Positions 42,058 through 59,942 of a stretch of DNA of 64,000 nucleotides are shown here, piece after piece. Made by a program: the position numbers and the translations under genes. The stretch's first letter is position 1. Each line of letters starts with the position of its first letter. The notes below the pieces were generated by a model. That model saw only the letters and a program-made list of their open reading frames with translations, did no database searches and was not told the origin of the DNA. Source of the DNA: Longimicrobium sp. (lineage in GTDB: Bacteria; Gemmatimonadota; Gemmatimonadetes; Longimicrobiales; Longimicrobiaceae); the NCBI GenBank assembly GCA_036387335.1, contig DASVTZ010000041.1, positions 1 through 64,000 of the forward strand, in the 5' to 3' direction.

Positions 42058-42642
42058 ATGGCGAACCTCCGAGAACTGCTCAGTGGCGGGACGGTGCGGC
42101 TGCTGACCCACTTCCTCGTACACCCCGACCAGCGCCTCCATCTCCGCGCACTCCAGGAGCGCACCGGGATGGGAACGGGCGCCCTGCAGCGCGAGCTCCG
42201 CCGCTTCGAAGCGCTCGGGCTCGTCCGCCGCGCCGAAGAAGGTGGCAGGGTCTACTTCGACCCGGTGCCCGGCCATCCCAGCTGGAACGCGTTCCGCACC
42301 CTGCTCCGCGAGCACGGGGACCCGGTAGAGGTCGTGCGCGAGGTGCTCCGGGACGTCCCCGGGATCCAGGCGGCCTTCGTGTTCGGCTCCACCGTGCGCG
42401 GCGGCGCCCGCCACGGAAGCGACGTGGACGTGCTGATCGTGGAGGAGGGGATGCCCACCGCCGCCATCGGCCGGGCGATGATCGAAGCCGAGTCGCTGCT
42501 GAACCGCCCTCTCGACGTGCAGCGGTTCACCCCCGCCGCCCTCGCGGAGAAGCTGCGCCGTGGCAGCGCATTCCTCCGCGACGTGGTGAGCGGGCCCAAA
42601 GCGTGGCTGATCGGATCGGAAGATGTCCTCCTCGCCCCCTGA
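42058..42642 (+). CDS. Solitary MNT nucleotidyltransferase with N-terminal HTH
   Basis: 194 residues. Same architecture as the MNT protein at 11841-12431: a winged helix-turn-helix (LHLRALQERTGMGTGALQRE, LRRFEALGLVRRAEEGGRVY), then a nucleotidyltransferase core (AAFVFGSTVRGGARHGSDVD, the GS-x9-DxD pattern), and a shared C-terminal pattern (LLNRPLDVQRFTPAALAEKL, GSAFLRDVVSGPKAWLIGSE). No HEPN gene follows: a family-A repeat begins about 75 bp after the stop. It may be an orphan antitoxin, or a stand-alone DNA-binding nucleotidyltransferase with another partner. Confidence 0.82.
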   Translation: MANLRELLSGGTVRLLTHFLVHPDQRLHLRALQERTGMGTGALQRELRRFEALGLVRRAEEGGRVYFDPVPGHPSWNAFRTLLREHGDPVEVVREVLRDVPGIQAAFVFGSTVRGGARHGSDVDVLIVEEGMPTAAIGRAMIEAESLLNRPLDVQRFTPAALAEKLRRGSAFLRDVVSGPKAWLIGSEDVLLAP

Positions 42643-46324: not shown

Positions 46325-47119
46325 ATGGCCACCGCGCTGCCCGAAGTCGTAATCCCCGAAGACCGCCACGTGGAGCACGGGCGCGTGGCGCACGAGCTGC
46401 GCGTGCAGAGGTTCCTGCAGCCGGACGACTCCACCTGCGGGCCCACCTGCCTGCGCAAAGTCTACGACTTCTACGGGGTGGAGGCGGACGAGGCGTCCGT
46501 GCTGGGCGAGATCGACCGCAACGAGGACGGCGGCACGCTGGCCGTCTTCCTGGGGATCGCGGGGATGCGGCGCGGGTTCAACGCGCGCATCTACTCGTAC
46601 GACCTGCAGATCTTCGACCCAACGTGGGCGTCGCTCCCGCGCGAGGCGCTGATGGAAAAGATCCACGCGCGCTTCCCGTACCTGCGCGACTCCAAGCGGC
46701 TGCGCGCGGCGCGGGCGTACCTCGATTTCCTGGCGATGGGCGGCGAGATCGCCATCTTCGAAGAGCTCACGCCGTCGCTCATCAAGGAGATCCTGGACCG
46801 CGAGCACCCCGTGCTGGCCGGCCTCTCGGCCACGTACCTGTACCGCTTCCGCCGCGAGCGCTGGATCCCCGAGACGGACTCGCTGGTGGACGACGACGAG
46901 GCCGGCGATTCGACGGGGCACTTCATCGTCATCGTCGGCTACGAGCACTGGGGGCGGCACTTCTCCATTCGCGACCCATCCGTGCACGTCCCCGCTTCGC
47001 CCGACGGGCGGGTGGTGGTGGATGCGCAGCGGCTGATCAATTCCATCCTCCTGGGCGACGCCACGTACGACGCGGTGCTCCTGGAGCTGTGGCCCAAAGA
47101 CCAGGAGCAAGAACGGTGA
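46325..47119 (+). CDS. C39-like cysteine peptidase of an amidoligase system
   Basis: 264 residues from ATG 46325. Papain-fold cysteine peptidase of the C39-like group: the catalytic Cys38 in DDSTCGPTCLRKVYDF, His199 in TGHFIVIVGYEHW and Asp217 in RDPSV make the Cys-His-Asp triad. No signal peptide, so it acts in the cytoplasm. The stop overlaps the ligase start (GTGA). Peptidases of this sort next to ATP-grasp and GCS2-type ligases are thought to trim or release amide-linked peptides. Substrate unknown. Confidence 0.82.
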   Translation: MATALPEVVIPEDRHVEHGRVAHELRVQRFLQPDDSTCGPTCLRKVYDFYGVEADEASVLGEIDRNEDGGTLAVFLGIAGMRRGFNARIYSYDLQIFDPTWASLPREALMEKIHARFPYLRDSKRLRAARAYLDFLAMGGEIAIFEELTPSLIKEILDREHPVLAGLSATYLYRFRRERWIPETDSLVDDDEAGDSTGHFIVIVGYEHWGRHFSIRDPSVHVPASPDGRVVVDAQRLINSILLGDATYDAVLLELWPKDQEQER

Positions 47120-50034
47120 AGCGCAGGCGCGTGATCGTGGTGGTGTCCGACCCATCGGATGCGGCGGGGCTCCCCGAAGGTCTGGTGACATTGGCCGGGC
47201 GGTACCTGGAAGGCGGAGCGGAGGTGGCGGAGCCCGGCGCGGTGGTGGTGAACCTGTGCCGCTCCTTTCGATACGGATCCACGGGATACTACGTCTCCCT
47301 GCTGGCCGATGCGCGCGGGCAGCAGGTGCTCCCGCGCGTGGAGACGAGCGAGGGGATGGGCGAGCCGTACGGCCTCTTCCGCGCGCTTCAGGAGGCCGGC
47401 GTCCCCACCGTCGATGCGGCGGAGATGAGCGTGCGGCGGCGGATGGCGGACGTGCCGCAGCCGCCCGCGCCGCCACCCGCGGCCGGCGACGACGCCCCGC
47501 GCGCCGCCTTCCATCCGCCGCTCGTACGCTGCCCCGAGACGTCGCTCCGCGCGGCCACGGAGGGCGAGGTGGCGGAGACGCTGGCGGTGCTTGGGCGCAC
47601 CGAGGACCCGCGCTTCCGCGTGGCGGCGCGCACCGTATTCCGCGAGTGGCCGGTGCCGCTGCTGCGCATCCAGCTCGTCTTCGAGGAGGAGGAGTGGAAG
47701 GTGTGCGGCGTCGCGCCCGAGTCGCCGCACCACCTGGACGACGAGGGGCGCCGCCTCCTGGCCGGCGCGCTGACGGACACGCGCCGCGTCTTCCGGCGGG
47801 GGACGGCGGAGCCGCGCGAGACCCGCCGCGCCTCCATCGCCGTGCTGGTGGACCCCGACGACATCTTCTCTCCGTCATCCCCCGAGACGATCGACCGGCT
47901 GGAGCGGGTGGCGGCGCGCATGAACGTGCACGTGCACCGCATCACCCTCGGCGAGATGCGGCGCCTGTCCGAGTACGATGCGCTCTTCATCCGCGTCCTC
48001 ACCGGGGTCAGCGAGCCGGCCTTCCAGTTCGCCCTCCGCGCCGAGGCGCTGGACATGCCGGTGGTGGACGACTCACAGTCCATCATCCGCTGCGGCAACA
48101 AGGTCTTCCTCGAAGAGCTGCTGCGGCGCGAGGGGATCGGCACGCCGCGCTCTCGCATCATCACCCCGCACACGCCGTGGGAGGCGGTGGCGGAGCTGGG
48201 CTTCCCCTTCGTGGTGAAGCTCCCCGACGGCTCGTTTTCGAACGCCGTGCACAAGGTGGTCTCGCGCGAGGACTACGCGGTGCGCAGCGAGGAGATGTTC
48301 CGCCGCTCGCCGCTGATCCTGGCGCAGGAGTGGCTCCCCACCGACTTCGACTGGCGCGTGGCGGTGCTCGATGGGAAGCTCCTTTTCGCCGCGCGCTACT
48401 TCATGGCGCGCGGCCACTGGCAGATCCGGTCCGAGCAGAAGGGGACGGAGCGCTACGGCCGCGTGGAGGCCGTGCCGCGCGCCCAGGCCCCGCGCGACGT
48501 GGTCGATGCCGCCATCCGCGCCGCCGCCCTGATCGGCGACGGTCTGTACGGGGTCGATCTCAAGGAGACGCCGAACGGGCCGGTGGTGATCGAGGTGAAC
48601 GACAACCCCAACCTGGACGTCGGCTACGAGGACGCGGCGGACGGGAACGCCGTCTACGAGGACCTGGTGGAGTTCTTCGTACGGAGGATCGAGGCGGCGG
48701 CCCCGCCCCCGCGCCCCGCGCCCGCCCCCGACGCGCTGGAGCGCCTGCGCGCGCCCATCCGCATCCGCGGGGCGGCGCGGACGGAGCGCGCGTATCGTGC
48801 GTTCGAGGTGGCGGGGATCGAGCTGGAGTACCCCACCGTGGACCGCGACCTCAACGTGGTGCCGCTGGTGGAGGAGGCCTTTCGCGTCCTCGCCGGCCGC
48901 GGGACGAGCGACGTGGACCTGGGCGCCGTCGGGTTCAGCAACGAGATCGCCGATCACGTCTTCGAGGTGAAGACGGGCGCCCCCCTGCGCTCCCTCGCGG
49001 ACGCGGAGGCGGCGCTGGTGGAGGGGATCGGTCGCTTCAGCGCGGTGCTGCGCGACGAGTGGGGCGCGCGCCTCCTTCCCACGGGGATGCACCCCTGGTT
49101 CAACCCGAGCAAGGGGCGGCTCTGGTCGCGCTCCAACGGGCGCATCTACGGCACGTACGCGCGCCTCTTCGACGTGCGCACGCACGGGTGGATGAACGTG
49201 CACGCCACGCACCTGAACCTCCCCCTCGGCGGCGAGGCCGACGCGGTGGCGATGCACACCGCCGCCTCGCTCCTGATCCCCTACCTCCCCGCCCTCGCCG
49301 CATCGTCGCCGATGCACGATGGCGAGCTGCAGGGGTCAGCGGACGCACGCCTGGCGTGGATCCTGGAACACCAGGCCCGCATCCCGGAAAGCTGCGGCGA
49401 GCTGGTGCCGGAGTACGTGGAGAGCTTCGGCGACTACCGGCGCAGCATCCTGCAGCCTATGTACGCCGCGCTCGACCGCCTGCCGGACTCGGCGCCGATC
49501 CGCCACGACTTCTTCAACGCGCGCGGCGCGGTGCTCAAGTTCAGCCGCCGCGCCATGGAGGTGCGGGTGCTGGACACGCAGGAGTGCGTGAAGATGGACA
49601 TCGCGGTCGCCGCCTTCGTCCGCTCGGCGCTCAAGTTCCTGGCGGCGCGCGTGAAGGCGGGGCGCATCGTCCTTCCGCCGCACCCGCTGCTGGTGGAGGA
49701 CTTCCGCGCCTGCATCCGCGACGGGAGCCGCGCGCTCGTCACCGCCCCGCATCTCCCCGGCGACCGCGACACGGAGGGCCGCACCCACGCGCGCGACGTC
49801 CTGCGCACCCTGCTGGACGGCGCGCGCCGCGCCGTCCGCCGCGACGAGGCGGAGTACCTGGACCTCGCCGCGCGCATGATCGAGTCGGGGAGCCTCTCCG
49901 AGCGCATCCGCGCCGAGCTGGCGCCCTACGTGGAGGGCGACGACGAGCAGTTCACCGAAGCCGCGCGCCGCATCTACATCGAGCTGGCGGATTCGCTCGA
50001 CGCGAACGTGCCCTGGCACGGGCGCGGGCTGTAG
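47116..50034 (+). CDS. RLAN/ATP-grasp ligase fused to GCS2-type carboxylate-amine ligase
   Basis: 972 residues from GTG 47116. Domains in order: an RLAN domain (about 1-150; VIVVVSDPSDAAG, VNLCRSFRYGSTGYYVSLLA); a RimK-like ATP-grasp (about 240-525) with DMPVVDDSQSIIRCGNKVFL, VKLPDGSFS (367-375), GVDLKE and the metal-binding VIEVNDNPNLD (491-501); a proline-rich linker (530-540); and a GCS2 domain (about 565-870) with GIELEYP, FSNEIADHVFEVKTGAPLRS, HATHLNLPLGGE and RRAMEVRVLDTQECVKMDIA. Two ligase active sites in one chain suggest stepwise addition of amino acids to a carboxylate. Coupled to the C39 peptidase. Products unknown. Confidence 0.88.
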   Translation: MKRRRVIVVVSDPSDAAGLPEGLVTLAGRYLEGGAEVAEPGAVVVNLCRSFRYGSTGYYVSLLADARGQQVLPRVETSEGMGEPYGLFRALQEAGVPTVDAAEMSVRRRMADVPQPPAPPPAAGDDAPRAAFHPPLVRCPETSLRAATEGEVAETLAVLGRTEDPRFRVAARTVFREWPVPLLRIQLVFEEEEWKVCGVAPESPHHLDDEGRRLLAGALTDTRRVFRRGTAEPRETRRASIAVLVDPDDIFSPSSPETIDRLERVAARMNVHVHRITLGEMRRLSEYDALFIRVLTGVSEPAFQFALRAEALDMPVVDDSQSIIRCGNKVFLEELLRREGIGTPRSRIITPHTPWEAVAELGFPFVVKLPDGSFSNAVHKVVSREDYAVRSEEMFRRSPLILAQEWLPTDFDWRVAVLDGKLLFAARYFMARGHWQIRSEQKGTERYGRVEAVPRAQAPRDVVDAAIRAAALIGDGLYGVDLKETPNGPVVIEVNDNPNLDVGYEDAADGNAVYEDLVEFFVRRIEAAAPPPRPAPAPDALERLRAPIRIRGAARTERAYRAFEVAGIELEYPTVDRDLNVVPLVEEAFRVLAGRGTSDVDLGAVGFSNEIADHVFEVKTGAPLRSLADAEAALVEGIGRFSAVLRDEWGARLLPTGMHPWFNPSKGRLWSRSNGRIYGTYARLFDVRTHGWMNVHATHLNLPLGGEADAVAMHTAASLLIPYLPALAASSPMHDGELQGSADARLAWILEHQARIPESCGELVPEYVESFGDYRRSILQPMYAALDRLPDSAPIRHDFFNARGAVLKFSRRAMEVRVLDTQECVKMDIAVAAFVRSALKFLAARVKAGRIVLPPHPLLVEDFRACIRDGSRALVTAPHLPGDRDTEGRTHARDVLRTLLDGARRAVRRDEAEYLDLAARMIESGSLSERIRAELAPYVEGDDEQFTEAARRIYIELADSLDANVPWHGRGL

Positions 50035-50204: not shown

Positions 50205-50822
50205 ATGGACACGGCGCCCGACCAGCGATTCACCCCACAGGAGTACCTCACCCTGGAGCGTGCCTCTCTGGAGCTGAAGAGCGAGTACGTGGATGGACAT
50301 ATCCTGGCGGTCGCGCGCGTGAACCTCACGCACAATCTGATCGTCACAAATCTCGCACGCGAGCTGGGTACCCGGTTGCGAGGCGGGCCGTGCAGCGCGT
50401 TTCTCAGCCGGATGCGCATCAAGGTTCGAGCGACCGAGATGTACGCCTATCCGGATGTGGTCGTCGTTTGCGGCGAGCCGCGACTGGAGGACGACCACTT
50501 CGACACGCTGCTGAACCCCACCGTCATCATCGAGGTGCTCTCCCCCTCCACGGAACGGTACGACCGCGGGGAAAGGTGGGCGCACTTCCGCCGGTTGGAG
50601 ACTCTCCAGATGTACGTCCTGATCGCGCAGGATCGAATGCGCGTGGAGACGTTCACGCGCCGAGGCGACGAGTGGATTTACGCGGAGTCGAGCGGGGCGG
50701 ACGGGGTGCTGAACCTTCCGGCGGTAGGTTTCGCGGTGCCGCTGGACGCCCTCTACGAGGACGTGCTGACGGGTAGCGCCGCGCCGAAAACCGGCGGCGG
50801 CGCGGGTGAACGGACGGCGTAA
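50205..50822 (+). CDS. Uma2-family putative endonuclease
   Basis: 205 residues from ATG 50205 behind GAGGGAAG. Uma2/DUF820 fold: RFTPQEYLTLERASLELKSE, YVDGHILAVARVNLTHNLIV, the nuclease strand YAYPDVVVVCGEPRLEDDHF and the E-V-L strand NPTVIIEVLSPSTERYDRGE, then RLETLQMYVLIAQDRMRVET. The PD-(D/E)xK pattern is present (PDVVVV...IIEVLS). These proteins are common in Cyanobacteria, Chloroflexota and Gemmatimonadota; their cellular role is unclear. Monocistronic. Confidence 0.87.
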   Translation: MDTAPDQRFTPQEYLTLERASLELKSEYVDGHILAVARVNLTHNLIVTNLARELGTRLRGGPCSAFLSRMRIKVRATEMYAYPDVVVVCGEPRLEDDHFDTLLNPTVIIEVLSPSTERYDRGERWAHFRRLETLQMYVLIAQDRMRVETFTRRGDEWIYAESSGADGVLNLPAVGFAVPLDALYEDVLTGSAAPKTGGGAGERTA

Positions 50823-51343: not shown

Positions 51344-51922
51344 CTAACGTCCCCGGCTGTTCACCTGCCGCTCGTGGTGCTCGATGTGGTCCAGCACCCG
51401 CTCGGGAGCCACGTCCTGCGCCAGCTCGCGCAGCTCGGGGTGCTTGGCCGCGTCCACGTCCATCCGGCGGGCGATCTCGGTCACCAGGGTGATGAGCTGG
51501 GTGATCTCGTGCTCGGACAGGAGGGAGACCTGGAGGTCCAGGTCGGCGCGCTTGTCCGCCTGCGCCTGCATGCGGTTCTGCGAGATGAGGACGAAGGTGG
51601 AGAGGAAGATCGCCTCCACCGACGCGATCATCGCCAGCACCACGAACGACGGATCGAACCGCGGGACCGGCGTCCACCCCAGGTTGACGACGATCCACGA
51701 GCCGAAGATCGTCAGGTGGATGTACACGAAGAGCATACTCCCCGTGAAGCGCGTCACCCGGTCGGCGATGCGGTCCTGCGTGCTCTTGCGTAGCTCGTCC
51801 TCGCGCCGTCGCTCGAGGAGCGCGACGATGTTGCGGTCCACCACGCCGGCCATCTCCGGCGTCTGGTCCCGGTCCGGGATCAGGCGCTGGTGGCCGAGCT
51901 GCGGGTCCTTGGCCGCGTCCAT
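51344..51922 (-). CDS. DUF1003 inner-membrane protein
   Basis: 192 residues from ATG 51922, overlapping the cyanophycinase stop (TAATG). The family core is clear: VTRFTGSMLFVYIHLTIFGS, then FDPSFVVLAMIASVEAIFLS, then TFVLISQNRMQAQADKRADL. Two membrane helices are flanked by charged parts, with a helical C-terminal tail (ITQLITLVTEIARRMDVDAA). DUF1003 proteins are widespread small membrane proteins of unknown role. Translational coupling to cyanophycinase suggests co-expression. Confidence 0.88.
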   Translation of the reverse strand: MDAAKDPQLGHQRLIPDRDQTPEMAGVVDRNIVALLERRREDELRKSTQDRIADRVTRFTGSMLFVYIHLTIFGSWIVVNLGWTPVPRFDPSFVVLAMIASVEAIFLSTFVLISQNRMQAQADKRADLDLQVSLLSEHEITQLITLVTEIARRMDVDAAKHPELRELAQDVAPERVLDHIEHHERQVNSRGR

Positions 51923-52818
51923 TAGGTGCCGGTCCCCACTTCGGCGGTGCGGCTCCCCGCGCTCGTAGGCGTAATCGGAGTGGGCACGCGCTCGCCGTTG
52001 GGGAGGATGGGGCGGTGCGTCGCGAGGTCGAAGCCGTACCCGGTCGGGAGGACGTGGACCAGCGTGTCGGTCAGCGCCAGCACGTCCTCGTCGCTCGCGT
52101 TGGGAGCGCTGGAGTGGGTGACGTGGCCGTCGAAGACCAGCACCGCGTTCTCCCCCAGCACCGTGAAGCTCTCCCCCAGCTCCACCTCCACCGCGGTGTT
52201 CTCGTCGATGCCGATGCCCAGCACCTGCGGATTGTGCGCGAAGACCGTCATCAGGCGGCTTACGCGGCCGCGCTGGCTGAAGTGGGTGTCCACCACGGTG
52301 TCGCGCCACAGCCCCAGCCCCGGGGCAAGCGAGATGTCCGCGCGCCGCACCGAGCCCTCGCTGGTGCCGCCGATCAGCATCACGCTGCTCATGGCGGCGG
52401 CGCCGGCGCTGGTGCCGGCCACCACCAGCCCGTCGTGGAAGAGCCGTTCGCGGATCCCCTCCGCGAAGTGCGTCCCCGCGATCAGCGCCACGAGCTTCAA
52501 CTGGTCGCCCCCGGTGATGAAGAACCCGGTCGCGCGCTTAACCGCGTCCAGCAGCTCGGGAGTGTCCGCCTCGTTGCGCTCTTCGATGGCCGCGGGAATG
52601 ACCTCCGCCACGCCGATCTCCTCGAAGATCTTGCGGTAGGTCTCGAACGCCTCCTCCGCCTCGCCCGACGGCGACGAGCAGACGATGATGCGCGCCTGGT
52701 CGCCCCCCGCCAGCTCCACCACGCGGCGGAGGATCACCATGTCACCGCCCTCTTTCTCCTCGGCGCCGCCGATCACCACCAGCCGCCCGATCTTCCCCGA
52801 CCCGTCCGTCTTCGACAT
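51922..52818 (-). CDS. cphB: Cyanophycinase (peptidase S51 family)
   Basis: 298 residues from ATG 52818 behind GAGGGAGC. Peptidase E/cyanophycinase fold: RLVVIGGAEEKEGGDMVILR at the start, RIIVCSSPSGEAEEAFETYR, FFITGGDQLKLVALIAGTHF, and the nucleophile Ser137 in VVAGTSAGAAAMSSVML. VVDTHFSQRGRVSRLMTVFA and QVLGIGIDENTAVEVELGES follow, as in cyanophycinases. It cleaves cyanophycin (multi-L-arginyl-poly-L-aspartate) to beta-Asp-Arg. An isoaspartyl dipeptidase, which splits that dipeptide, lies 1.9 kb upstream on the same strand. No cyanophycin synthetase is in the window. Confidence 0.9.
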   Translation of the reverse strand: MSKTDGSGKIGRLVVIGGAEEKEGGDMVILRRVVELAGGDQARIIVCSSPSGEAEEAFETYRKIFEEIGVAEVIPAAIEERNEADTPELLDAVKRATGFFITGGDQLKLVALIAGTHFAEGIRERLFHDGLVVAGTSAGAAAMSSVMLIGGTSEGSVRRADISLAPGLGLWRDTVVDTHFSQRGRVSRLMTVFAHNPQVLGIGIDENTAVEVELGESFTVLGENAVLVFDGHVTHSSAPNASDEDVLALTDTLVHVLPTGYGFDLATHRPILPNGERVPTPITPTSAGSRTAEVGTGT

Positions 52819-52886
52819 TCGCTCCCTCTCGGTTCCGTCACCCGTCTTTCGCATCGCGCGGTTCAGAGTCAAGGATCAAGCCACGC

Positions 52887-53926: not shown

Positions 53927-54241
53927 TTACGGGGTAGTGCCGGTGGTTCCACCCGTGGTGCCGCCCGTCGTGCCGGCGCCGGCGCCCATGCCGGTCGTGT
54001 CCGCGGTCAGGCCGGTGCCGGTGGTGCCGGTCGCCGTCGTGCCGGCGGCGCCGCCGGCGGCCGCGGGGTCGGTGGTGCCGCTCATGGCGGGGTCCGTGGT
54101 CGTGCCGCCGGTGCCGGCATCCGTCGTGGCCGCGCCGCCGGTGTCGCCCGCGGCGCCGCCCTCTCCATCGTCACCGCCGCCGCCGCACGCCGCGGCGCCG
54201 AACATCGCGGCCAGGGCCAGGGTCGATAGAAGCTTCTTCAT
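53927..54241 (-). CDS. Gly/Thr-rich low-complexity lipoprotein 1
   Basis: 104 residues from ATG 54241. Signal MKKLLSTLALAAMFGAAACG with lipobox Cys19, followed by GGGGDDGEGG and then runs of Gly, Thr, Ala and Asp with no structured domain (GTTGGTTGGTTGTTP at the end). Two similar small lipoproteins, at 54321-54662 and 55968-56279, share the CGGGG start and the Thr/Gly/Pro body. Such proteins are likely disordered surface or periplasmic lipoproteins; function unknown. Confidence 0.75.
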   Translation of the reverse strand: MKKLLSTLALAAMFGAAACGGGGDDGEGGAAGDTGGAATTDAGTGGTTTDPAMSGTTDPAAAGGAAGTTATGTTGTGLTADTTGMGAGAGTTGGTTGGTTGTTP

Positions 54242-54320
54242 TGCGTTCTCCAGTACCTGATACGGTGAATCGCCGCGGCTCCACGGCCGCGACGCGGGAC
54301 GAGCTCGCAACATCCGCGCG

Positions 54321-54662
54321 TCAGGGCCGGGGGGCCGGGGCGGGGGTCTCCGCGGGCGTGGATGCGCCGCTGTTGGTGCCGGCCGGCCCGCCCGCCGTGG
54401 ATGCGTCGAATCCGGGGCTCTGCCCGGCCGTGTCCGCGGTCGCGGCGGTGGTGGCGCCGCCCGTGGTGCCGCCGGTCACGGTGGGATCGGTGGTGCCCGT
54501 GGTGCCGCTGGTCATCGCCGGATCCGCGGTGGTGGTGCCCGCCGCGCCCGCGTCGGTGGTCGCCGCATCGCCCGCCTTCCCGCCCTCGTCGCCGCCGCCG
54601 CACGCGGCCGCGCCCAGCATCGCCGCCAGCGCCAGCGCCGGGATCATCCGCTTCGTCTTCAT
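54321..54662 (-). CDS. Gly/Thr-rich low-complexity lipoprotein 2
   Basis: 113 residues from ATG 54662. Signal MKTKRMIPALALAAMLGAAA with the lipobox Cys at residue 21 (AACGGG), then DEGGKAGDAATTDAGAAGTT and a repetitive Thr/Gly/Ala/Asp body ending in PAETPAPAPRP. It is the closest relative of lipoprotein 1, 80 bp downstream, and lies 24 bp after the isoaspartyl dipeptidase stop on the same strand. Likely a tandem duplicate. No recognised domain. Confidence 0.75.
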   Translation of the reverse strand: MKTKRMIPALALAAMLGAAACGGGDEGGKAGDAATTDAGAAGTTTADPAMTSGTTGTTDPTVTGGTTGGATTAATADTAGQSPGFDASTAGGPAGTNSGASTPAETPAPAPRP

Positions 54663-54685: not shown

Positions 54686-55861
54686 TCACTGCCGCGACCC
54701 TTCGGTGCCACGGTCGGGGCACTTCCCTCCCACCAGGTGGATCGCCCGCATGCTGTCCTCCAGGAACTTCTCTTCCACCACCGTGCTCCCGTCGCGCACC
54801 ATGAAGACGCCCTTGGACAGGACGTGGACGATCTCCAGCGTGCCCTTTTCCAGGAGGAGGATGTCGCCCCACTTCCCCTTCTCCAGCGTCCCCTTCATCT
54901 CCAGCTTCAGGATGCGCGCGGTGTTGCGCGTGACCAGCGAGAGCGCCTGCTCCAGCGGAAAGCCGTGCTTCGTCACGCACGAGCGCACCTGCTCCGACAG
55001 CACGCGCGGGCTGCTGATGGAGGCGTCCGACGACGCGGTGAGGCACGCGGGGTCGCCGCCCGCGTCCAGGTAGAAGCGGAGCCACTTCGCCAGGTCCTCC
55101 GCGATGGTGTCCACGTCCACGTTGCACCCGCGCTTGGTGAGCTCGACGGCCTCGGCCATCAGCTTCTCGTTGCGCTGCACGTGCGTGGGGTAGACGCAGC
55201 GGGGGTCGATGTCGTGTTCGTCCAGGATCAGGCGCAGCGGCTCCAGGCGTCGGTCCATCTCGCCCACGTGGAAGTGCGTCACGCCGGACTTCCTGGCCAG
55301 CATCCCGCCGATGTAGGTGTCGCTGACGACGCGGGCCAGCTCCACCGCGCTGGTGTTCATCGCCCGCCGGTCGGAGATGGCGACCTCGCCGGTGCCGATC
55401 ACCTCCTCCAGGAACATGATGTCGTCGCGCACCGAGTTCATGATGGAGGTGGGCGGGACGTTGTAGCCCCCCGTCCAGAGGTACGCGTTGAGCCCCTGCT
55501 CGTTGAGGCCCTTCACCTTGGCCAGGAGCCCCGCCATCGTCTTCATGGTGGTGTCCACCCCCAGCGCGCCCACCGCGGTGGTGATGCCGTACGGCACGAT
55601 CTCGCCGATGAAGAACTCGGGGGTCTGCGTGGCGAACCCTTCCTCGCCGCTCCCGCCCAGGAGGTGCATGTGGGGGTCGATGAAGCCGGGGACCACGAGG
55701 CACCCCGTGGCGTCGATCACCTCGCACTCCACGCCCACGGACTCGACGGCGCGGCGGTCCACCTCGCCCACTTTGCCGATCTTGCCGTCGGTGAGGAGCA
55801 CCTGCTGCTTCCCCACCGGCGCCGGCGTGTAGACTTCCCCGTTCTCGATCAGCTTGAGCAC
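54686..55861 (-). CDS. iadA: Isoaspartyl dipeptidase-like amidohydrolase
   Basis: 391 residues from GTG 55861 behind GGAGAGGACGG. Amidohydrolase superfamily: PGFIDPHMHLLGGSGEEGFA with the first metal ligands His64 and His66, further metal or substrate residues in SGVTHFHVGEMDRR and RCVYPTHVQRNEKLMAEAVE, and the metal Asp in LTASSDASISS. FIDPHMHLLGG...TPEFFIGEIV resembles IadA, the beta-aspartyl (isoaspartyl) dipeptidase. It would hydrolyse beta-Asp-Arg from cyanophycinase, or isoaspartyl dipeptides from protein turnover. Its location with cphB favours the former. Confidence 0.85.
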   Translation of the reverse strand: MLKLIENGEVYTPAPVGKQQVLLTDGKIGKVGEVDRRAVESVGVECEVIDATGCLVVPGFIDPHMHLLGGSGEEGFATQTPEFFIGEIVPYGITTAVGALGVDTTMKTMAGLLAKVKGLNEQGLNAYLWTGGYNVPPTSIMNSVRDDIMFLEEVIGTGEVAISDRRAMNTSAVELARVVSDTYIGGMLARKSGVTHFHVGEMDRRLEPLRLILDEHDIDPRCVYPTHVQRNEKLMAEAVELTKRGCNVDVDTIAEDLAKWLRFYLDAGGDPACLTASSDASISSPRVLSEQVRSCVTKHGFPLEQALSLVTRNTARILKLEMKGTLEKGKWGDILLLEKGTLEIVHVLSKGVFMVRDGSTVVEEKFLEDSMRAIHLVGGKCPDRGTEGSRQ

Positions 55862-55967: not shown

Positions 55968-56279
55968 TCACGGCGTGGTGGTCGCGCCGTTGCCCGCGCC
56001 GTTGCCCGCGCCGCTCACCGGGGTGCCCGAGACGCCGGTGGTGTCCGTGGCGCCCGCCGCCGGCATAGCTCCGGTGGCGCTGTCGCCGGGCATCGGAGGC
56101 GGCGTGGTGGTGGCCGCGCCCGTACCCGCGCCGGTTGTGTCCAGCGCCGGCGCAGCGGAGCCGTCCGGTGCGCCGGCCGTGGTGTCCGCCGTGGCGCCGT
56201 TCGATGCGTTGCCGCCGCCGCCGCACGCGGCCAGCAGCGCCGCGATGGCGAGTGTCGGGATGATTCCGCTTCTCCGCAT
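55968..56279 (-). CDS. Gly/Thr-rich low-complexity lipoprotein 3
   Basis: 103 residues from ATG 56279. Signal MRRSGIIPTLAIAALLAACG with lipobox Cys19, GGGGNASNGATADTTAGAPD, then Ala/Gly/Thr/Pro repeats (TTTPPPMPGDSATGAMPAAG) ending in GNGATTTP. Third member of the low-complexity lipoprotein set that flanks the isoaspartyl dipeptidase gene. The composition is close to lipoproteins 1 and 2 but the body is unalignable in detail. Confidence 0.75.
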   Translation of the reverse strand: MRRSGIIPTLAIAALLAACGGGGNASNGATADTTAGAPDGSAAPALDTTGAGTGAATTTPPPMPGDSATGAMPAAGATDTTGVSGTPVSGAGNGAGNGATTTP

Positions 56280-57651: not shown

Positions 57652-58041
57652 CTACGACTCCAGGTCGGAGGTCCACTGGGGGGCGTTGTGGCCCAGGGAC
57701 TGGAAGAGGCCGCGCAGGAGGGCGGCGGCGCGGGGGATGGCGGCTTCGCGGTCTTCCTCGGGGATGCCGAGGAGGAGAAGCTCGAGGGCGATCCGCGCGT
57801 CTTCGGCGGCCAGGGCGTCGTCAGCGGCGCCGGCGAGGCCCTCGCGCAGCTCGCGGGCGTACCACTTCCTCCACAGGCGCGCGTTGCGCTCGTACGGCTC
57901 GGATCCGTCCACGAACTTCTTGGTGGCGCCCACTTTGACTCCGGCGCGCACGGCGACTTTGCGCAGCGACGTCCGCGCGACCTGCTCGCGGGCGTGCGCG
58001 CGGATGCGCTCCATGGACGCGTCGCGGTCGCGGTCAGCCAT
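57652..58041 (-). CDS. Small helix-turn-helix protein (paralogue of 4593-5003)
   Basis: 129 residues from ATG 58041 behind GAGGGGC. The region 19-50 (EQVARTSLRKVAVRAGVKVG, ATKKFVDGSEPY) is a helix-turn-helix, followed by RLWRKWYARELREGL and a helical C-terminus with acidic residues (EDREAAIPRAAALLRGLFQS). The shared pattern with the protein at 4593-5003 is TSLR-VA-KKF-G-PY-RKWY. A small DNA-binding protein family of this organism is the likely reading. The AT-rich gap upstream, 58085-58135, could hold its operator. Confidence 0.7.
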   Translation of the reverse strand: MADRDRDASMERIRAHAREQVARTSLRKVAVRAGVKVGATKKFVDGSEPYERNARLWRKWYARELREGLAGAADDALAAEDARIALELLLLGIPEEDREAAIPRAAALLRGLFQSLGHNAPQWTSDLES

Positions 58042-58325
58042 GTGCCCCTCCGTGGAGGGGTGGCCGAACGGTGCGCGTCAGAGCGCGCTGTGCACTGTGT
58101 TTACTTGAATTTAGGTTACACTCTTACATTACAGGCACCTTTCCGAACCGGCAAGAACCGGCCCCAAACTTCTGCACCGTGGACACTCCCGCGAGGCGGT
58201 TGAAATGCCATGCGCGCAGCTTGGGCCAGATCTGCGTGGGGACGCACGCAGGCGGTTGCGTGTGCGCCCCCGCCCGCTACGTTTCGTCCGCACGAAGGCC
58301 CACTCGCCCCCAGACCGTACCCGTG

Positions 58326-59942
58326 ATGCCCGCATCCATCCGCCGGACCGCGCTGGCCGCGCTCATCGTGGCCGCGCCCCTCGCCGCCCAGACGGAGCCG
58401 CGCACCCGTCCCGAGCGCACCGGCTTCCGCGAGACGTCGCGCTACGACGAGGTGGTCGCGTTCATGGAGGCGGTCGACGCCCGCTCGCCGCGCATCCACC
58501 TCACCACCTTTGGCTACACGCTGGAGGGCCGCCCCCTTCCGCTCGCCGTGGTGGGGAACGTGCGCGACGCATCGCCCGAAGCGGTGCGCGCGTCGGGGAA
58601 GACGGTGGTCTACCTCCAGGGCAACATCCACGCGGGTGAGGTGGAGGGGAAGGAGGCGCTCCAGGTGCTTCTGCGCCAGCTCGCGAGCGGGGAGCACGCG
58701 GCGTGGGCCGACTCGCTCGTCCTCCTCATCGCGCCCATCTACAACGCCGATGGGAACGAGCGGGTGAACCTCACGAACCGGCCGCACCAGTTGGGGCCGA
58801 TCGGAGGGATGGGGCAGCGGCCAAACGCGCAGGGGCTGGACCTGAACCGCGACCACACCAAGCTGGACTCGCCCGAGGCGCGCTCGCTGCTGGAGATGGC
58901 GCGCGCGTACGACCCGCACGTGTGGGTGGACCTGCACACGACCAACGGCACCTTCCACGCGTACCACCTGACCTACGCGACCCCGCTGCACCCAAACACC
59001 GATGCGCTGGTGGCGGGGCCGCTGAACGGCGAGTGGCTCCCCGCGGTCATGCGGGCGATGAAGCGGAAGCACGGGCGCGAGCTGCACGACTACGGCAACG
59101 TCCCCAACCCGGAGAGCACGTGGGCGGCGGCGCGCGGTGCGGAGCGCGGGTGGTACACGTTCGACCACCGCCCGCGCTTCAGCAACAATTACGCGGGGCT
59201 GCGCAACCGCTTCGGCATCCTGAGCGAGGCGTTCGCGTATCTACCCTTCGAAGACCGCATCGCGGTGACGGGCGAGTTCGTGGAGGAGGTGCTGGGGTGG
59301 GCGCACGCGAACGCCACCCGCATCCGCCGCGCGACCGAGGCCGCGGACCGCCGCACGCTGGCGGGCGAGCGGCTGGCTGTCACCGCGCGGCTGCACCGCG
59401 GCGCGCAGCCCATCGAGATCCTGATGGGCGCCGTCGACACCCTGCGCCACCCCTACACCGGCGAGCTCATGATGCGCCGGCGCGACGTGGTGCGCCCGGA
59501 GCGGATGGCGGACTTCTCCACCTTTGAGGCTGACGAGACGGAGGTGGTGCCCGCCGCCTGGCTCGTTCCCGCGGAGCTGGCGGAGGTGGCCGACCGGCTG
59601 GCCGCGCACGGCGTCCGCTCGGAATGCCTCGCCGCTCCGCAGCGGATGATGGTGGAGGAGTTCCGCATCGACTCCACGCGCACCGCGGAGCAGCCCTTCC
59701 AGAACCACCGCGAGCGCCGCGTGTGGGGCCGCTACGTCCGCACGGAGCGCGTCGTGCCGGCCGGGACGCTGCGCATCACCTCTTCGCAGCCGCTCGGCCG
59801 CCTGGCGTTCACCCTGCTGGAGCCGCGCTCGGACGATGGCTTCCTCAACTGGAACCTGATGGACGCCGCGCTTGAGAAGACGCCGGGGGTGTATCCGGTG
59901 GTGCGGGTGATGGCCGCGGGCGCCGCGGGCGCCGGGCGGTGA
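58326..59942 (+). CDS. M14-family zinc carboxypeptidase
   Basis: 538 residues from ATG 58326. Signal MPASIRRTALAALIVAAPLA then AQ. M14 peptidase: zinc ligands His102 and Glu105 in QGNIHAGEVEGKEA (HxxE), the third His in WVDLHTTNGTFHAYHLTYA, and a later Glu in GLRNRFGILSEAFAYL. The 190-residue C-terminal part is beta-rich. It probably acts in the periplasm or outside the cell, removing C-terminal amino acids from peptides. Monocistronic, in an unusual AT-rich promoter gap of about 280 bp. Confidence 0.88.
   Translation: MPASIRRTALAALIVAAPLAAQTEPRTRPERTGFRETSRYDEVVAFMEAVDARSPRIHLTTFGYTLEGRPLPLAVVGNVRDASPEAVRASGKTVVYLQGNIHAGEVEGKEALQVLLRQLASGEHAAWADSLVLLIAPIYNADGNERVNLTNRPHQLGPIGGMGQRPNAQGLDLNRDHTKLDSPEARSLLEMARAYDPHVWVDLHTTNGTFHAYHLTYATPLHPNTDALVAGPLNGEWLPAVMRAMKRKHGRELHDYGNVPNPESTWAAARGAERGWYTFDHRPRFSNNYAGLRNRFGILSEAFAYLPFEDRIAVTGEFVEEVLGWAHANATRIRRATEAADRRTLAGERLAVTARLHRGAQPIEILMGAVDTLRHPYTGELMMRRRDVVRPERMADFSTFEADETEVVPAAWLVPAELAEVADRLAAHGVRSECLAAPQRMMVEEFRIDSTRTAEQPFQNHRERRVWGRYVRTERVVPAGTLRITSSQPLGRLAFTLLEPRSDDGFLNWNLMDAALEKTPGVYPVVRVMAAGAAGAGR

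Follow-up and report, generated by a model that had tools for sequence, protein, structure and literature searches.

The 64,000-nucleotide stretch of DNA considered here, from Longimicrobium sp., a soil-type bacterium of the phylum Gemmatimonadota (assembly GCA_036387335.1, contig DASVTZ010000041.1, positions 1 to 64,000; hereafter the window) belongs to a draft genome, designated G000, of 5.8 Mb in 265 contigs that is 95.65% complete. It carries two overlapping genes on the plus strand, a C39-like papain-fold cysteine peptidase followed by a 972-codon open frame that runs from a GTG start to a TGA stop (Table 1). The longer frame has a GC content of 0.75/0.48/0.95 at the three codon positions, which is coding-like for this genome, and encodes an amidoligase with the domain order RLAN, ATP-grasp, GCS2. 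An initial annotation made from the letters alone had proposed this three-domain chain, and the open frame, the Pfam matches and an AlphaFold2 model all bear it out. The RLAN domain (PF14401) lies N-terminal to the RimK-like ATP-grasp domain and scores above its gathering cut-off, while the Pfam RimK and GCS2 families match residues 328-501 (30.4 bits) and 567-843 (80.8 bits), the cut-off being 21 in both cases.

In the AlphaFold2 model of the ligase, computed from an alignment from which one row from a plasmid record was left out, the individual domains are well defined and their mutual placement is uncertain, because the mean predicted local distance difference test score (pLDDT) is 89.8 but the predicted template modelling score is 0.54. 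Matches of the whole model in the PDB are taken up by the ATP-grasp and GCS2 domains. The ATP-grasp head matches LysX (3vpd, Z 28.0), ArgX (27.0) and RimK (26.4), while for the GCS2 head the matches are YbdK homologues (Z 39.8 for 1tt4, and 39.2), plant glutamate-cysteine ligase (2gwc, Z 34.2) and, within bifunctional GshF, the GCS portion (3ln7, Z 24.5). Both heads fall below the cut-offs of the curated NCBIfam families, with 78.3 versus 143.4 for TIGR00768 and 79.0 versus 275.6 for TIGR02144 in the ATP-grasp head, and 43 versus 176 bits for YbdK in the GCS2 head. Alignment of the ATP-grasp head to LysX places K329, K368, the QE pair at 404-405, D412/R414, D481 and E493-x-N495 on known catalytic positions, so that the fold, the catalytic lysines, the D-R pair and the D/E/N magnesium site are all present; over 40 sequences each of these residues reaches a conservation of 97% or more, E405 being absent from the list of conserved positions, and in an alignment of 61 relatives the catalytic residues of the head are invariant or nearly so. 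In the GCS2 head, alignment to YbdK assigns E569/E571 to the ExE motif, H659 to the HPF motif and E815/R817 to the EVRVMD motif, and all five residues are invariant in 26 sequences. Judged by these alignments, the active sites of both ligase heads are intact, one of the two points on which the initial annotation had said that its proposal could fail.

The peptidase likewise has an intact active site, with Q32, C38, H199 and D217 (numbered from the ATG at 46325) invariant in 33 sequences. This ATG is the more likely start, because conservation sets in just downstream of it. Both C39_2 (PF13529) and C39 (PF03412) match above cut-off. Unlike the C39 peptidases of bacteriocin exporters, the enzyme is a stand-alone protein without a fused ABC exporter. 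Its AlphaFold2 model (pLDDT 89.7) gives as top PDB match in VIA-align the glutathione acyl-enzyme of the phytochelatin-synthase-like protein Alr0975 (2bu3, Z 16.5, 165 residues, 2.5 Å), tied with the C39 leader peptidase 6mpz (Z 16.3). The spacing between the catalytic histidine and aspartate is 18, the same as in phytochelatin synthases, in which the pair is His162/Asp180 (PMC9265389), and compares with 16 in DUF3335. No match to the phytochelatin synthase family PF05023 (C83) was found at E 0.01 in any of the 33 peptidase family members, and the likeness to phytochelatin synthase is one of fold, not of membership. The TGA stop of the peptidase (47117-47119) shares the four bases GTGA with the GTG start of the ligase, the translational coupling already noticed in the initial annotation.

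With each species represented by one genome, a scan recovered at least 583 relatives, the closest named one among the matches listed being an 89%-identical protein from a metagenome-assembled genome (MAG) of an uncultured member of the Gemmatimonadetes. The fetched loci fall into two architectures. In class A, genes for a C39-like peptidase, an RLAN-ATP-grasp protein, a GCS2 protein and often an N-formylglutamate amidohydrolase (FGase) follow one another on one strand, in most cases either overlapping or separated by no more than a few bases. Among the 52 loci bearing both RLAN and GCS2, 46 carry the peptidase gene immediately upstream, and FGase lies downstream in 21. Of the six loci that depart from the peptidase pattern, two begin at a contig edge; no C39-like gene was detected upstream in loci L004, L011, L044 and L048. 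The class A operon spans at least eight phyla and was found in Gemmatimonadota, Planctomycetota, Bacteroidota, MAGs labelled Thermodesulfobacteriota/Myxococcota, Acidobacteriota, Verrucomicrobiota, Nitrospirota, Tectimicrobiota and Pseudomonadota. Peptidase and ligase are conserved as a neighbouring pair in different phyla, the other point on which the initial annotation had made its proposal depend. In class B, which forms a sister branch in Pseudomonadota and Gemmatimonadota family f3, the RLAN-ATP-grasp gene lies beside GNAT-DUF3335 and sometimes DUF2817. Because DUF3335 and the peptidase of class A are homologues (hhalign probability 97.1, E 6e-11), the core common to both classes is an RLAN-ATP-grasp ligase with a C39-like peptidase, to which GCS2/FGase or GNAT/DUF2817 are alternative additions.

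RLAN was found in 23 of 298 genomes sampled across the Gemmatimonadota. In the host family (f1) it is present in 17 of 21 genomes, G000 included, and is fused in all those that were fetched. The same RLAN-ATP-grasp-GCS2 chain, sought in other genomes as the initial annotation had suggested, occurs in 20 relatives, which come from the host family, family f2, one Planctomycetota MAG and one MAG labelled Deltaproteobacteria. In each of the 18 fused relatives from the two Gemmatimonadota families, the peptidase lies directly upstream and overlaps the ligase by four bases of the form NTGA. A single change on the tree (support 70) accounts for all 20 fused rows, next to which two split Gemmatimonadota loci are placed; this topology is compatible with a single origin of the fusion, if not firm proof of it. 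The fused chain is a derived form of what are usually separate, adjacent cistrons, a refinement of the earlier description.

The reading favoured here, held tentatively and at a little under an even chance, is that the enzymes of the operon synthesize a small amide or isopeptide metabolite and go on to process it, the metabolite being for instance a gamma-glutamyl-like amide or a tripeptide. The GCS2 head would activate a carboxylate as an acyl phosphate and join it to an amine; in its family the precedent is glutamate, activated at the gamma-carboxylate, or a closely similar compound. Partnered by RLAN on its N-terminal side, the ATP-grasp head would likewise activate a carboxylate and make the second addition, of an amino acid or amine. 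The peptidase, co-translated with the ligase, might then form an acyl-cysteine enzyme on the product, followed by hydrolysis or transfer, much as phytochelatin-synthase-like enzymes do with glutathione. On our best reading the overall logic would be that of GshF combined with a phytochelatin-synthase-like peptidase, though the system is a member of neither family. With its order (peptidase, first ligase, second ligase, often FGase) strictly kept in at least eight phyla, the operon most likely yields a single specific compound or modification. It is possible, if rather doubtful, that this compound is a glutathione-like gamma-glutamyl tri- or oligopeptide or polyamide made across many phyla, with the peptidase as its dedicated phytochelatin-synthase-like peptidase or transpeptidase and the Gemmatimonadota fusion as a one-enzyme synthase. 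In the host genome, the search for glutathione synthetase returned only weak matches inside two CphA proteins.

The preference for a small molecule is modest. Known GCS2 enzymes, such as glutamate-cysteine ligase and YbdK, act on free amino acids. FGase, the frequent fourth gene of the split operons, belongs to a small-substrate hydrolase family named for an enzyme of small N-acyl amino acids, and the peptidase fold has a glutathione-specific relative. The surroundings of the operon in the 54 GCS2-bearing loci examined showed no conserved small open reading frame that might encode a precursor or a carrier peptide, nor was there a match to the LysW carrier model TIGR01206 in the 95.65% complete host genome, the Thermus control being positive. 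These points favour the small-molecule version. Several observations weigh on the other side. A protein may still be the substrate, because RimK and LysX/ArgX act on protein C-termini or on a carrier protein. By sequence the peptidase matches C39-type families and no others, C39 enzymes cut peptides, and Foldseek ranked C39 leader peptidases above phytochelatin synthase. FGase is missing from the host genome and from every fused locus. Class B is entirely without GCS2, and therefore the two-ligase logic is not universal among RLAN enzymes.

The same observations bear on protein tagging, in which the ATP-grasp head would attach amino acids to a protein, much as RimK modifies ribosomal protein S6, the GCS2 head would extend or branch the tag, and the peptidase would remove it. 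Such a scheme would fit the nearest folds of the ATP-grasp head and the resemblance of the peptidase to peptide-cleaving enzymes, and in five host-family genomes the protein-degradation genes clpA and/or clpS divergently adjoin the peptidase (L118, in which the assignment is Pfam-confirmed, L120, L122, L123 and L125). However, this Clp neighbourhood, seen in a single family, has the look of inherited synteny, the analysis turned up no candidate target protein, and the habits of known GCS2 enzymes and of FGase, with its small N-acyl compounds, point elsewhere. Protein tagging is therefore considered unlikely, if far from negligible.

A less probable alternative, and quite an improbable one, is a side pathway for building or remodelling a cyanophycin-related isopeptide that contains arginine. 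Genes for a cyanophycinase and an isoaspartyl dipeptidase lie 2-6 kb downstream of the ligase in the window, and of the 17 family genomes with RLAN, 7 have cyanophycinase or CphA-N-domain genes in the vicinity of the ligase (G000, G005, G006, G014, G015, G003 and G010). The fused ligase of family f2 shares its 3' end with an overlapping arginine-deiminase/DDAH-like gene, at the position that FGase takes in class A operons. Yet two complete CphA genes already exist on other contigs of the host genome, and outside the host family the neighbourhood of the operon yielded no cyanophycin genes. Five of the seven linkages represent one arrangement, apparently ancestral in the family and present too in the deep-branching member L123, and ClpSA is kept as a neighbour equally often. 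Most of both neighbourhoods is read as inherited synteny, and cyanophycin is retained only as a minor rival. Maturation of a ribosomally synthesized and post-translationally modified peptide, in which the ATP-grasp head would cross-link or extend a precursor and the peptidase would cut its leader, has a precedent in the ATP-grasp and C39-type combinations of ribosomal peptide systems and in a fold match to the graspetide ligase PsnB (7drm), but is very improbable given that the neighbours examined include neither a conserved small open reading frame (54 loci) nor an ABC transporter, and that GCS2 and FGase are not usual parts of such systems.

The fused ligase offers a practical handle, since both heads are on one protein and can be killed separately, through K368 in one and E569/E571 in the other. 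A C38A peptidase should trap the product, so the identity of the amide is directly testable.

Other genes of the window lie on either side of this pair. Upstream of the peptidase are genes for a PDZ protein, an extracytoplasmic function (ECF) sigma factor and a helix-turn-helix (HTH) nucleotidyltransferase, the last of which (42058-42642, plus strand) fuses a MarR-like HTH to a minimal nucleotidyltransferase and has a weak resemblance to the MntA antitoxin, far below cut-off. No PADLOC defence model matched. Downstream of the ligase follow a Uma2-like gene (50205-50822), DUF1003, the cyanophycinase, an SMP-30-like protein and the isoaspartyl dipeptidase. Three short Thr/Gly-rich lipoprotein-like frames of similar sequence lie on the minus strand (53927-54313, 54321-54600 and 55968-56279), and a zinc carboxypeptidase gene (Peptidase_M14; 57942-59939, plus strand) lies about 8 kb downstream of the ligase. 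Elsewhere, a stand-alone gene consisting of the CphA N-terminal domain (PF18921) and about 170 further residues occurs at L131:6557-7819 (G000:C181) and in L133, L134 and L136, in each case between cyanophycin synthetase and a second cyanophycinase; in L112 and L119 a stand-alone PF18921 gene lies near the ligase.

Table 1. Features of the peptidase-ligase locus, its neighbours and related loci (window coordinates unless a locus is named)
Feature	Position	Strand	Basis
C39-like papain-fold cysteine peptidase, 264 aa	46325..47119	+	Pfam, invariant residues, AlphaFold2 model, PDB matches; alternative start GTG 46253
GTGA start/stop overlap, peptidase to ligase coupling	47116..47119	+	sequence; -4 overlap in 18/18 fused Gemmatimonadota relatives
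RLAN-ATP-grasp-GCS2 fused amidoligase, 972 aa	47116..50034	+	open frame, Pfam, AlphaFold2 model; 20 fused relatives
RLAN domain, residues 29-216	47200..47763	+	PF14401, 93.1 bits versus cut-off 25
RimK/LysX-type ATP-grasp ligase domain, residues ~239-529	47830..48702	+	LysX 3vpd Z 28.0, LysX alignment, conservation
GCS2-type carboxylate-amine ligase domain, residues ~558-962	48787..50001	+	PF04107, 1tt4 and 2gwc folds, YbdK alignment
GCS2 head active-site residues	E569/E571 (ExE), H659, H699, E815, R817	+	PF04107 membership by cut-off, fold and residues
Cyanophycinase	51922-52872	-	TIGR02069 above cut-off
Isoaspartyl-dipeptidase-like amidohydrolase	54686-55861	-	
Arginine-deiminase/DDAH-like gene	L128:4458-5321	-	overlap with ligase 3' end
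Arginine-deiminase/DDAH-like gene	L127:4412-5290	-	overlap with ligase 3' end
Arginine-deiminase/DDAH-like gene	L005:6591-7469	+	overlap with ligase 3' end

Neighbourhoods of RLAN and GCS2 have reportedly been treated before, by Iyer and colleagues in 2009, and the parts of the system have apparently been assigned in earlier predictions to amidoligase systems. The literature search returned no paper dealing with RLAN or with the C39-RLAN-GCS2 operon, and within that search the product stands as undescribed, as the initial annotation had it. The kind of system is not unheard of, however: a study that classified papain-like enzymes in 2023 (PMC10318531) refers to Iyer et al. 2009 (Mol BioSyst 5:1636) when noting that GNAT domains fused to DUF3335 may act as peptide ligases or acetylases. 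The present locus shares with these predicted systems an RLAN domain on a RimK-like ATP-grasp ligase and a C39-like papain-fold neighbour, with GCS2 and FGase beside the split form, and differs in carrying RLAN, ATP-grasp and GCS2 on one polypeptide without an FGase gene. GshF also joins a domain of the gamma-glutamate-cysteine-ligase fold to an ATP-grasp ligase in one chain, but its GCS domain is N-terminal and the order is reversed in the fused ligase, which moreover has a GCS2 rather than a GshA type domain, an ATP-grasp of RimK/LysX type, RLAN and a peptidase partner. The GCS2 head resembles YbdK and plant glutamate-cysteine ligase in fold and in its ExE, HPW/HPF and ExR-D motifs, and departs from them in a distinct invariant NE...H..E.K segment. 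The ATP-grasp head has the fold and catalytic residues of LysX, ArgX and RimK, and differs in its scores below the curated cut-offs, its N-terminal RLAN and a host genome without LysW. The peptidase has the fold of Alr0975 (2bu3, 6tho) and its Cys-His-Asp triad with the 18-residue His-Asp spacing, whereas its sequence is nearer to C39_2/C39 than to phytochelatin synthases, and it has about 55 more residues between Cys and His than the plant enzymes. RLAN itself is a named Pfam family, and the fused chain is a new form within a known kind of system.

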